Of a stretch of 64,000 nt of DNA, positions 32,647-36,769 are shown one piece after another. Source of the DNA: Tahibacter aquaticus (GTDB lineage: Bacteria; Pseudomonadota; Gammaproteobacteria; Xanthomonadales; Rhodanobacteraceae); contig NZ_SNZH01000003.1 of assembly GCF_004363655.1 (NCBI RefSeq), forward strand, positions 242,020 through 306,019. Reading direction: 5' to 3'. The translations under genes were made by a program, and so were the position numbers. Under the pieces are notes generated by a model. It ran no database searches. It saw only the letters and a list, made by a program, of their open reading frames with translations, and was not told where the DNA came from. Within the stretch, counting starts at the first letter, position 1. Each line of letters begins with the position of its first letter.

Positions 32647-32675
32647 TTGGATTGACCACCCCTCGTCGTGATAAT
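32647..32675 (+). promoter_or_regulatory. Probable sigma-70 promoter of gcvT
   Basis: TTGGAT (32647-32652) and GATAAT (32670-32675) are separated by exactly 17 bp, about 30 bp before the gcvT start. I see no glycine riboswitch motif in the 234-bp gap upstream. Confidence 0.6.
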
Positions 32676-32702
32676 GCGCGCCTCCCCAGGCCGGAACCGC
32701 CA

Positions 32703-33788
32703 ATGAGCAACCAGACCGTACTCAATGCAACTCACCGCGCGCTCGGCGCCAAGATGGTCGACTTCGGCGGCTGGGACATGCCCATCAGCTACGGCTCGCA
32801 GATCGAAGAGCATCACGCAGTGCGTCGCGACGCGGGCATGTTCGACGTTTCGCATATGACCGTGGTCGACCTGCGCGGTGCGCGCGTGCGCGACTTCCTG
32901 CGCCGCCTGGTGGCCAACAGTGTCGACAAGCTCAAGGTGTCGGGCAAAGCCCTGTACACCTGCATGCTCAACGAGCAGGGCGGCGTGATCGACGACCTCA
33001 TCGTCTATTTCCAGAGCGAAGACTACTTCCGCATCGTCGTCAACGCGGCCACGCGCGACAAGGATCTGGCCTGGATCCAGGCCCAGGCCAAGCACTTCGA
33101 CGTCAGCGTGAGCGAGCGTCCGGAACTGGCCATGATCGCCGTACAGGGACCGCACGCGCGCGCCAAGGTACACGGCCTTCTCACGGCCGAGACGGCGGCC
33201 AAGGCGGTCAAGCTCGGCAAGTTCGTCGCCTGCGCCGGTGATGGCCTGTTCATTGCCCGCACCGGCTATACCGGCGAAGACGGCTACGAGATCATCGTGC
33301 CGCAGGAGCAGGCAGTGGACTTGTGGAATCGCCTGCATGCCGCCGGCGTCGTGCCGGCCGGACTCGGTGCCCGCGACACCTTGCGTCTGGAGGCCGGCAT
33401 GAATCTCTACGGCCAGGACATGGACGAAACCGTGTCGCCCTACGAAGCGGCCCTGGCGTGGACGGTGGCGCTGGACGAGGGCCGCGATTTCATCGGCCGC
33501 GGTGTGCTGGAACAGCAGAAGGCGGCGGGTTCGCCGCGCGTCATGGTCGGGCTGGTGCTGGACGACAAGGGCGTGCTGCGCCATGGCCAGCGCGTGACGA
33601 CGGCGAACGGCGACGGCGAAATTCTCTCCGGCACTTTCTCGCCGACCCTGGGCAAGGCGATTGCCTTCGCACGCATTCCGGCCGGCGAGCCGGGCCAGGT
33701 CCAGGTCGACATCCGCGGCAAACTGCTGCCGGTGCGTGTGGTCAAGTTTCCCTTCGTGCGTGACGGCAAGCCCTGCGACGGCGTCTGA
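32703..33788 (+). CDS. gcvT: Aminomethyltransferase, glycine cleavage T protein
   Basis: T protein of the glycine cleavage complex, 361 residues (E. coli has 364). It transfers the aminomethyl carbon from lipoyl-GcvH to tetrahydrofolate. Motifs include [19 protein letters not shown], the folate-site GEDGYEI and [20 protein letters not shown]. The ATG at 32703 begins the normal family N terminus. gcvH follows after 84 bp; gcvP is not in the window. Confidence 0.96.
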
Positions 33789-33872: not shown

Positions 33873-34271
33873 ATGAAAGAAATCCCCGGCGACCTGAAAT
33901 TCATGAAGTCCCACGAGTGGGCCCGTGTCGAAGACGATGGCACGGTCACCATTGGTATTTCCGACCACGCCCAGGGCCTGCTCGGCGACCTCGTCTACGT
34001 AGAGCTGCCGAATGTCGGCGACACGCTCGAAGTCGGCGCCGGTTGTGCTGTCGTCGAATCGGTCAAGGCCGCTTCCGATGTCTATTCGCCGGTGGCCGGC
34101 GAAGTGATCAAGGTGAACTCCTCGCTGGCGGACAAGCCGGAGACGATCAACGAAGACGCTTTCGGCGACGGCTGGATCGTCGTGGTCAAGCCAAGCAACC
34201 TGCGGGAAGACATGGACAACCTGCTTGACCCGGATGCTTACCTCGAACAGCTGGAAGACGAAGACGAGTAA
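33873..34271 (+). CDS. gcvH: Glycine cleavage system H protein
   Basis: Lipoyl carrier protein of 132 residues that shuttles the aminomethyl group between the P, T and L proteins. The lipoylation site is Lys65 in [14 protein letters not shown]. Other conserved parts are [22 protein letters not shown] and [12 protein letters not shown]. In operon with gcvT and ended by a strong terminator. Confidence 0.97.
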
Positions 34272-34308
34272 GTCGCGGCGGCATCGCCGCCCCGCGATTT
34301 CCTCTTCG

Positions 34309-34334
34309 AGGCGCGCCGCAAGGCGCGCCTTTTT
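34309..34334 (+). terminator. Rho-independent terminator after gcvH
   Basis: A 9-bp stem AGGCGCGCC / GGCGCGCCT with a four-base GCAA tip, and five Ts at 34330-34334, 38 bp after the gcvH stop. Confidence 0.92.
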
Positions 34335-34984
34335 CATGCGCGCCATCGACGTGCAGACGCTGCAGTCGACGCCGCGCGCGAGGGACATCGCGCAGCGTGT
34401 CTGCCTGCAGCGAAGACAGCGCGTGCTGATATCGGCGGGCACGGCAAGAGCCTCGCATCATCGCAACGTCGCGCATCGCGCACGCGCCGCGGCTGCCGAA
34501 GCGCTGTGCGAGTCTGCGCACTTTCGCGCAAATCGGCCCGCGACGACCCCGCAACCAGTCCCTCAGCTGAACGCAAGCCCTTGCTTCGCGATGATCGCGA
34601 GCAGAGGCGGCAGCCGGCGTGACGCGCCGGCACGAGCACGCGATCGCGCGAGCCGCCGGCCATCGCCCTGTTTTCGTAATATTTGAAATAAAGGTAAAAA
34701 GAAACAATGGAAAACGCAGATTGGCGCGCGAATGCGGGGGTTTTGCGCAAGGTAGCGGCGCGCGCGCGGTGTAAGTGCTTGCTGCGGAAAGCTATCCATT
34801 TAGACGGCTGGACGTCCCGGTCGGCAGCCGTGTCGCGCGCATGCGTGCAGCCCGGATGACGCGATCGCGTGCGGCAGAGGCGTTGTATCTTCGTGCATGT
34901 GATTGTCGCGCTTCGAAAACTTGTTGACAGTGCTGGGCGACAGGAATAATTTTCGCGCCGTTGAAACGCGCGCGTAATGGAGAT
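34335..34984. other. Intergenic region, 650 bp, regulatory part at the 3' end
   Basis: Arginine-rich shadow frames only. An A/T-rich patch lies at about 34673-34712, and a 50-codon frame from ATG 34707 to 34859 has no good ribosome site and an unlikely composition. The last 60 bp hold the promoter of the MetJ-like gene. The remainder is unexplained. Confidence 0.5.
34924..34952 (+). promoter_or_regulatory. Promoter of the MetJ-H1 fusion gene
   Basis: TTGACA (34924-34929), a 17-bp spacer and TAATTT (34947-34952) give a strong sigma-70 promoter about 30 bp before the start codon. No tandem met-box (AGACGTCT) is seen, so autoregulation by the MetJ domain is not evident. Confidence 0.75.
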
Positions 34985-35503
34985 ATGTCGGAAGGCAAGT
35001 ACATCGACCCGTATGTCGAACACGGGAGCAAGTCGGAAGCGGTCCGCAAGATCACCGTTTCCATCCCGATGCACATACTTCGACTTCTCTCTGACGAACG
35101 TACGCGGCGGCAGGTCGCCAACCTCCGCCACGCTACCAACAGCGATCTGCTGTGCGAGGCGTTTCTGCACGCTTTTACTGGGCAACCACTGCCAACTGAC
35201 GAGGAGCTAAGACGTATGGCCATGAAGAAAGCAACCGCGAAGAAACCCGCCGCCAAGAAAGCCGCGGCGAAGAAAGCCACTGTAAAGAAGGCGGCCCCGG
35301 CCAAGAAGGTCGCCAAGGCCAAAGCTGCACCGGCCAAGAAGGTCGCTGCGAAGAAGCCGGCTACCAAGAAGGTAGCGGCGAAGAAGGTCGCGAAGAAAGT
35401 CGCTGCCAAGAAGGCTCCGGCCAAGAAGGTAGCGGCGAAGAAGGCTGCACCTGCCAAGGCCGCACGCGCGACCAAGGCTGCCAAGCCGGCTGCTGCAAAG
35501 TAA
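34985..35503 (+). CDS. metJ: MetJ-type repressor fused to a histone H1-like Lys/Ala tail
   Basis: Protein of 172 residues. Residues 1-78 are a ribbon-helix-helix domain very close to E. coli MetJ, including the DNA-contacting strand [24 protein letters not shown] and [17 protein letters not shown]. coli MetJ then continues with its own C-terminal helices; here residues 79-172 are instead a low-complexity basic tail ([18 protein letters not shown] repeats) as in histone H1-like and AlgP proteins. ATG 34985 has GGAG close in front. It probably binds DNA through both parts. Whether it still senses S-adenosylmethionine and controls methionine genes is unknown. Confidence 0.88.
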
Positions 35504-35605
35504 TCAGGCAACACGTTCCACCGATAGAAACACCTGTAAGTCGTTTCTGCTTTGCCTCCCCTGCGGTGCCCAGCGCAGGGGACGGACTTTGCAGAGGCTG
35601 CGAAG

Positions 35606-35627
35606 ACGCCGCGCAAGCGGCGTTTTT
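35606..35627 (+). terminator. Rho-independent terminator after the MetJ-H1 gene
   Basis: Stem ACGCCGC / GCGGCGT with a GCAA loop, followed by a T run, 100 bp after the stop codon. Confidence 0.85.
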
Positions 35628-35725
35628 CGTTTGCGCGATGTGCGTCGCAATGCCATAGGCGACACCGGGCCACGCCTGGGGCTAGGATGTTCCCCCGTCC
35701 TGCTGCCGGTGTCGGAGTCCTTGCT

Positions 35726-36769
35726 ATGCGGTTGCTGATGCGTCTGTTGGGTCTGCTGCTGGTGCTGGCCCTGGTTCTGGTCGGCGTGGCTTTCGTTCTG
35801 CCCGACCGCGTCCATGTGGAGCGCAGCACCACGATCGCGCGGCCGCAATCGCAGATCTATCTGCTGCTGTCCAATCTGCGCCGCTTCAACGAGTGGTCGC
35901 CGTGGCATGCGAAAGATCCGGCCGCGCGCTACACCTTCAGCGGGCCCGAGCAGGGCATAGGCGCGAAGCTCGCATGGTCCAGCCAGCAGTCCGGCGTCGG
36001 CGAGGGCAGCCAGGCCATCACCGCGCTCAAGCCCGACGAATCGGTTTCGCTGCTGCTCGACTTCGGCGAACGCGGCAAGTCGAATGCGAACTTCCGCCTC
36101 GCCACGGTGAGTGGCGAGACGCGCGTGAGCTGGAGCCTCGACAGCGATCTGCCGCTGCATCTGGACAGCCGCTTCGGCTGGAATGTGGTCGGCCGCTACA
36201 TGGGGCTGTTCATGGATCGCCTGGTCGGTCGCGATTTCGAAACCGGACTGGCCAACCTGCGCGAGCTCGCCGACAGCTTTCCGAATATCGACATTGCCGG
36301 CATCGAGCCGCGTCTGGTCGAGCTGCCTGCGCGCAAGCTCACGGTGGTTTCGCTCGACGTGGCGCTGCAGGACGAGGCCGCGCTGAAGCGCAGCTGGGAC
36401 GCGGCACTGAATCAGCTGCAGCGCTTCCACGTACAGCACAAGCTGGGTGGCGAGACCGGTGCACCGTTGACGCTGACGCGCCGGCGCGATGCCGGCCAGT
36501 GGAGCTTCGACCTGGCCTTGCCGGCGCAGTATGACCTCATGCCGGAAGACACTGCCGTGCGCGGCATGCTGTTGCCGGCGGCGCGTGCTGCGCAGCTCGA
36601 TCATTTCGGCTCGCTGGCCGAACGCATCAAGCTGGTGGAAAAGCTGCAGGCCTGGCTGGCGGTGAAGGGGCTGCCGGCGGGCGAGCCCGTGATCGAGGAA
36701 TACGCGCCGGGCAACGGACCTGGCCGCGGCGAAGTGCGCATCTCGATTCCTTTGCAGGCGCAGCAGTGA
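35726..36769 (+). CDS. SRPBCC family protein with GyrI-like C-terminal domain
   Basis: Protein of 347 residues. The N-terminal helix (LMRLLGLLLVLALVLVGVAFVL) is a signal anchor. Residues about 25-175 form an SRPBCC/polyketide-cyclase-like domain (RSTTIARPQSQIYLLLSNLR, FNEWSPWHAKDP), and residues about 190-345 resemble the GyrI/effector-binding fold. ATG 35726 has GGAG at 8-bp spacing. The two domains both bind small hydrophobic ligands in other families, so a ligand-binding role is likely, but the ligand is unknown. Monocistronic. Confidence 0.85.
   Translation: MRLLMRLLGLLLVLALVLVGVAFVLPDRVHVERSTTIARPQSQIYLLLSNLRRFNEWSPWHAKDPAARYTFSGPEQGIGAKLAWSSQQSGVGEGSQAITALKPDESVSLLLDFGERGKSNANFRLATVSGETRVSWSLDSDLPLHLDSRFGWNVVGRYMGLFMDRLVGRDFETGLANLRELADSFPNIDIAGIEPRLVELPARKLTVVSLDVALQDEAALKRSWDAALNQLQRFHVQHKLGGETGAPLTLTRRRDAGQWSFDLALPAQYDLMPEDTAVRGMLLPAARAAQLDHFGSLAERIKLVEKLQAWLAVKGLPAGEPVIEEYAPGNGPGRGEVRISIPLQAQQ

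Follow-up and report, generated by a model that had tools for sequence, protein, structure and literature searches.

In the 64-kb stretch of Tahibacter aquaticus DNA analysed here (hereafter the window), we identified a gene whose product is probably a genuine MetJ repressor extended by a histone H1-like tail and that would also give rise to the tail alone from a conserved internal start, a reading to which we assign a probability of roughly 0.6 on the basis of sequence comparisons. The MetJ part would bind tandem met boxes and repress methionine and sulfur genes as well as its own gene, as suggested by the sites and residues described below, and the lysine-rich, probably disordered tail would add non-specific DNA affinity. 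Ribosomes would also start at the junction GAGGAG-ATG and thereby make the tail alone. One mRNA would then yield both the repressor with its tail and a free DNA-binding protein of the H1-like kind, 95 residues long in T. aquaticus, and the level of S-adenosylmethionine (SAM) might in this way be linked to the nucleoid. The features of the locus are listed in Table 1.

Table 1. Features of the fused metJ locus, with positions in the window.
Feature	Position	Strand	Basis
gcvT (NF001567), precedes gcvH	32652-33788	+	same strand upstream in 62/76 loci
gcvH (NF002270), conserved upstream neighbour	33873..34271	+	same strand upstream in 73/76 loci
Tandem met box AGACGGCTGGACGTCC, 13/16 matches, ~170 nt before ATG	34802..34817	+	consensus match; conserved distance in family
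Promoter-like TTGACA-N17-TAATTT	34924..34952	+	by eye in alignment; TTGACA conserved in 20 aligned loci (of 76)
Fused gene, MetJ and H1-like tail, 172 aa	34985..35503	+	open frame, profile matches, alignment with solved MetJ
MetJ part, codons 1-77	34985..35215	+	profile matches, alignment, residue conservation
Junction element, silent-site conserved, mostly rare codons (GCT TTT ACT GGG CAA CCA CTG CCA ACT GAC GAG GAG CTA AGA CGT ATG ...)	35171..35230	+	codon variability, rarity, genome search
GAGGAG, putative Shine-Dalgarno for the internal start, 9 nt upstream of ATG	35201..35206	+	conservation, anti-Shine-Dalgarno pairing
Proposed internal start codon ATG (Met78)	35216..35218	+	in 75/76 genomes; 31/31 further junctions uncut by contig end
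H1-like tail, 95 aa and stop; also proposed free protein	35216..35503	+	open frame, profile matches, composition

A MetJ protein with a lysine-rich tail

The fused protein matched the MetJ profiles PF01340 (residues 3-82; 136 bits versus a cut-off of 25, E 3.6e-40) and NF003622 (141 bits versus a cut-off of 110), and its residues 4-80 aligned with the E. coli-type MetJ chains 1cma and 1mj2. From residue 78 onwards, the T. aquaticus protein consists of 36% lysine and 42% alanine and is devoid of acidic residues. This tail matched the HC2 profile with 28.5 bits and NF038053 with 32.9 bits, which is under the respective cut-offs of 40 and 80. The initial annotation had described a MetJ protein fused to an AAKK-type tail, and this was borne out, as 77 MetJ residues run in frame into a tail of 95 residues. 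Its further statement that the C-terminal helices had been replaced holds only in part, as the 20 tail-less MetJ proteins encoded elsewhere in the order already end at 79-97 residues, so that the tail may have been added to an already short MetJ. Judged by length rather than structure, helix C of MetJ is lacking from the fused protein, in which the PF01340 match ends at residue 82. The gene represents the sole MetJ match in the 7.27 Mb T. aquaticus genome, and its product shares 93% identity with the aligned protein from Tahibacter caeni. MetJ is an intertwined dimer, and the AlphaFold2 model of the fused chain, with a mean pLDDT of 51.5, was too poor for use.

We then surveyed the order, in which MetJ was found in 96 out of 299 genomes, 76 of them belonging to the Rhodanobacteraceae and 20 to other families. 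All 76 Rhodanobacteraceae metJ genes carried the tail, compared with none of the 20 genes from the other families. Given that the same architecture recurs in 76/76 family loci, the MetJ-tail fusion is real and not an effect of chance or of assembly. The tails of the 76 family members are 41-310 residues long (median 103) and contain 28-46% lysine and at most 2.4% acidic residues. These 76 genomes represent 22 genera and, as relatives, are not independent, yet codons elsewhere in metJ vary freely. In the chromosomal context, the gene is preceded by gcvT and gcvH in most loci (Table 1); only ~1.5 kb of upstream sequence is present in all three loci that lack gcvH and in eight of the 14 that lack gcvT. 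An origin from two genes, metJ and a neighbouring H1-like gene, is not supported, as the 20 relatives without a tail showed no H1-like stretch behind metJ in the 113 to 1500 nt of downstream sequence at hand, with little left in several cases.

Within the family as a whole, MetJ was present in 227 of 233 genomes and in 190 of the 192 good assemblies. Among 36 further family loci, 32 contained a MetJ frame, and the tail was reached in 31 of these (some being cut within the tail), the exception being a locus in which the contig edge precedes the tail (L339); the remaining four comprised three placeholders of 10 bases and one locus at a contig edge with no frame (L332). A pattern scan of named genomes returned at least 118 stretches, and among the matches listed were those from Dyella, Rhodanobacter, Luteibacter, Frateuria, Dokdonella, Tahibacter, Oleiagrimonas and Mizugakiibacter. 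In these stretches MetJ lay in frame in 105 cases according to the search expression and in 5 more by eye, while one (L189) carries a stop within the MetJ part and seven were cut on the left, where the expression was unable to match. A class-wide search identified MetJ in 3 of 274 genomes, the other two open frames being 112 and 118 residues long.

In the accessible part of a 2014 survey of methionine regulons, no MetJ was recorded for its four Xanthomonadales genomes (PMC4239095), as opposed to the 227 of 233 genomes of one Xanthomonadales family in which we now find it. Excerpts of two other papers state that metJ is missing in Xanthomonas campestris (PMC6230763) and that the met operon of this species is under the control of a SAM-I riboswitch (PMC7270179). 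Among the matches listed in a search of the open-licence literature we found no report of a fusion between MetJ and an H1-like tail, and the words 'xanthomonad' and 'tail' are absent from PMC3228920.

Met boxes and probable methionine control

No met box was visible at the promoter according to the initial annotation; this was wrong, as a tandem box matching at 13 of 16 positions precedes the fused gene (Table 1). Each match was scored by counting the positions identical to the E. coli consensus, and 0.08 such matches would be expected in the 64-kb window. Within 300 nt upstream of metJ, the best match, strong or weak, was located at -190 to -166 relative to the ATG in 64 of the 76 family loci, and at least 12 matches to the box were reached in 41 of 76 loci, compared with 0 for a reversed control. 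The 12 loci without a met box at the usual place before metJ all belong to genus g8 (between L026 and L050), and the five genus g8 genomes tested among them have a met box before the SAM riboswitch. In T. aquaticus, 106 nt with little conserved sequence separate the met box from the conserved TTGACA downstream of it (34802-34929). Such a distance is long for a repressor site, and a second promoter near this distant met box is possible. A sigma-70 promoter scan of positions 34600-35700 found none under its own rule.

The initial annotation had also suggested scanning the genome for met boxes upstream of met genes. With up to 3 mismatches allowed, tandem boxes occurred at four places (5 overlapping matches) in the 7.27 Mb T. 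aquaticus genome, namely as three boxes before metX-metB (NF006449, TIGR02080), as one site before metE (NF003556), between the gene of a CysB-type regulator (NF009325) and cysG-cysK (NF007922, TIGR01139), and before the fused metJ gene itself. The reversed pattern matched more often in this genome (26 versus 5), and the forward and reversed patterns both matched in all of 117 family genomes. As the reversed pattern also matches widely, the number of met boxes is no evidence in itself, and the evidence lies in the places at which they occur. Before metX-metB, the tandem boxes at the promoter are followed by a SAM-I riboswitch in the leader (2419-2595 of locus L102, contig C13). At metE, we observed a cobalamin riboswitch directly behind the tandem met box (2157-2401 of locus L103, contig C3).

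The SAM riboswitch was present in 113 of the 117 family genomes, and we read 40 of the other 112 loci (L359-L398). In every one of these 40 relatives, a tandem box with at least 13/16 matches was found within 200 nt upstream of the riboswitch, while the reversed control reached 12 or more matches in none of the 40. By eye, TTGACA or TTGACG usually stands right behind the boxes in these relatives. Downstream of the riboswitch, the start of MetX was found in 29 of the 40 loci and not in the other 11, these loci holding only a few hundred bases of downstream sequence. Normal met-box regulation in tailed orthologues, which the initial annotation had named, together with a lack of wide DNA coverage, as an outcome that would speak for an incidental tail, is therefore seen at the level of sites in 40/40 relatives. 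Based on the met boxes at the met genes of the T. aquaticus genome and before the SAM riboswitch in all 40 relatives, we consider the product of the fused gene to be very probably a working methionine repressor.

The residues of the MetJ part are consistent with this view. The reading strand of MetJ presumably contacts the met box through Lys23 and Thr25 (E. coli numbering). Arg40 and Asn53 are further met-box contacts according to the part of PMC2775130 that was available. In the fused protein, the equivalent Lys22, Thr24 and Arg39 were invariant and Asn52 nearly so among 19 aligned sequences. The same excerpt names Glu39 and Arg42 as the partners of SAM (PMC2775130). Both were kept in 47 of the 76 family members, including T. 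aquaticus (its residues 38 and 41), while both were changed in 28 (L063-L090), which carry Leu39 together with His, Tyr or Glu at position 42; in one additional member Arg42 alone was changed (His42). All 20 genomes with the double change that were tested keep met boxes before the SAM riboswitch. In a tree of gcvT and gcvH, which covered 62 of the 76 loci, the change of Glu39 and Arg42 was not resolved as a single event (support 0.34).

An electrostatic mechanism has been suggested for the activation of MetJ by SAM, a view that is disputed, as far as the accessible text of PMC2775130 goes. A natural MetJ with a large positive tail, together with a subset in which the SAM contacts are changed and the operators are intact, allows this idea to be tested. 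A simple exchange of SAM for the tail is disfavoured, because E. coli MetJ could not do without SAM when positive charges were added by point mutation, as reported in that part of the same paper (PMC2775130).

The junction between repressor and tail

At the join of the two parts, GAG GAG and an in-frame ATG were found in 75 of the 76 genomes, preceded by CCA ACT/ACC and nearly always followed by AGA. The spacer between GAGGAG and ATG measures 9-12 nt, and 12 nt in most genomes. Among 51 dereplicated sequences, codon variability lay between 0 and 0.11 throughout positions -15 to -8 and was 0 at GAG GAG and AGA, compared with about 0.5 over most of metJ. Relative to an expectation derived from the 41 gcvT and 48 gcvH copies in these loci, variability reached 0.51 at positions -15 to +6 and 1.44 in the rest of metJ; the lowest 10-codon window at the junction gave 0.29, and the minimum of 308 control windows in gcvT/gcvH was 0.57. 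The silent-site constraint extends ~45-48 nt upstream of the internal ATG, and the nearly invariant stretch covers about 60 nt in all. Among the kept codons, AGA (0.2%), CGA (1.3%), ACT (2.9%) and CCA (3.2%) are rare, as counted in 135 copies of gcvT and gcvH, and GAG, which is kept twice, is common. A 30-nt core of the junction, searched with up to 3 mismatches, occurred once per genome in 75 of the 76 family members; the 223 other genomes of the order gave no match, and the tail-less metJ genes of the other families do not share the element.

In 37 of the 38 loci examined, which were every second one of the 76, the RNA around the internal ATG showed weaker folding than its codon-shuffled versions, with a mean z of +2.1 as compared with -0.07 for 114 control windows. 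Pairing with the anti-Shine-Dalgarno sequence averaged -8.4 kcal/mol at the internal start, -5.5 kcal/mol at the gene's own start and -2.8 kcal/mol at other codons (76 loci), and 1.6% of the other codons reached the median pairing of the internal start. A single genome out of the 76, G238, was devoid of the element, of GAGGAG, of the ATG (GTG instead) and of the open structure, and kept the fused tail.

The junction therefore combines what would be expected of a gene with an internal start, namely a conserved putative Shine-Dalgarno sequence and start codon, low structure and silent-site constraint. As these features are conserved together and are absent together in G238, we propose an internal translation start as the simplest account of the junction. 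The spacer of 12 nt in most genomes, which is on the long side, counts against it. A plain ribosome-binding site also fits poorly with a constraint that is strongest upstream of the Shine-Dalgarno sequence, at codons -15 to -8, beyond its needs; these codons may harbour a translation enhancer or be bound by a factor. Since G238 keeps the tail without the element, a free tail product would not be needed everywhere. Several other readings of the element were discarded by eye: hammerhead-like, sigma-54-like and frameshift interpretations failed on pairing, spacing or the other frames. A GCUUUU/AGGAGC helix hiding the Shine-Dalgarno sequence was seen in some folds, but genus g89 has GCG TTC or GCG TTT at this place and the region is, on the whole, unusually open. 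The ATG of a leader ORF in the +1 frame would need the His codon CAT, which was found in only 19 of 51 sequences.

Use of the internal start would mean that a single gene with a single promoter serves both a metabolic repressor and a nucleoid protein. The initial annotation had raised the idea that methionine control is tied to chromosome structure, and this idea gains support from a junction that resembles an internal start. More tentatively, and with a likelihood that we put just short of even, one Rhodanobacteraceae gene would specify two proteins in one frame, a tailed met repressor and a free H1-like protein, with the met boxes tying the supply of the condensing protein to SAM and with the tail possibly replacing the affinity boost by SAM where Glu39 and Arg42 have changed.

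Alternative explanations and related systems

Two alternatives concern the protein itself. The initial annotation had considered a nucleoid protein with a borrowed MetJ fold, taken here as one that has given up the control of methionine genes, and both the long H1-like tail and the 28 of 76 members in which the SAM contacts Glu39 and Arg42 (as named in the excerpt of PMC2775130) are changed would agree with such a protein. However, this explanation is largely refuted by the conserved operators, which precede metX, metE, metJ and cysG in T. aquaticus and the SAM riboswitch in 40/40 genomes, 20 of them with the Glu39/Arg42 change; with the box-contact residues conserved as well, we regard it as extremely improbable. 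The tail could instead be incidental low-complexity growth without function, and lengths from 41 to 310 residues are what repeat slippage would give. Its presence in 76/76 genomes with 28-46% lysine and scarcely any acidic residues, as well as the same kind of tail on the DNA topoisomerase I of the same lineages, makes this very improbable.

The other two alternatives accept the repressor and differ in how the junction is read. Should the fusion alone be made, the tail would raise the DNA affinity of the repressor and the junction would act as a rare-codon pause that lets the MetJ dimer fold before the tail appears. Most of the conserved junction codons are indeed rare, and a pause could plausibly separate the translation of a folded domain from that of a disordered tail, but codon identity is kept beyond rarity (ACT in 51/51 sequences at -13, CCA in 50/51 at -8, and the common GAG GAG), and neither the in-frame ATG and GAGGAG nor their joint absence in G238 are explained, so that we judge a pause unlikely. 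A regulatory site in DNA or RNA, such as a protein site, a small-RNA target or an internal promoter, that is not tied to a separate tail protein would suit the position of the most invariant part upstream of the Shine-Dalgarno sequence, and also the surrounding nucleotides, which remain unchanged even where the encoded residue differs, as with CAA in place of CCA in some genera. Yet an Rfam scan of positions 34000-36000 with E values up to 5 gave 8 matches, all under their gathering scores and none over the junction, the sigma-70 scan found no promoter, some genera, by eye, disrupt the small hairpin that might form, and an ATG with GAGGAG in front of it closes the element; we consider a regulatory site of this kind quite unlikely.

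Compared with known systems, the MetJ part resembles E. coli MetJ (PF01340, NF003622, 1cma) in its core domain, in the residues of the reading strand and in the tandem boxes before metX-metB, metE and metJ. It differs in that the match stops close to residue 82, versus about 104, within a chain that is longer and continues as the lysine-rich tail, in that Glu39 and Arg42 are both changed in 28/76 family members, and in the additional riboswitches, for SAM at metX and for cobalamin at metE. The tail shares its AAKK/APAKK composition with Hc2 (PF07382) and the Burkholderia-type H1-like protein (NF038053), with matches under the cut-offs. Those are stand-alone proteins, whereas the tail described here is fused to a repressor and has a proposed start of its own. 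In-frame internal translation starts are found in infB and clpB, and the proposed arrangement is similar in that a second start in one reading frame would produce a C-terminal product. Unlike in these genes, the second product would be a predicted DNA-binding tail, and silent-site constraint reaches ~45-48 nt upstream of the ATG.

Lastly, we observed a lysine-alanine tail on DNA topoisomerase I in six of eight loci (L310, L291, L297, L299, L302 and L308), the protein being identified by NF006451 in T. aquaticus (L310) and a relative (L291), as partial frames below the whole-protein cut-off, and by eye in the others. The C-terminal tail of this DNA-acting protein has the same composition as that of the MetJ fusion, but its carrier is an enzyme.
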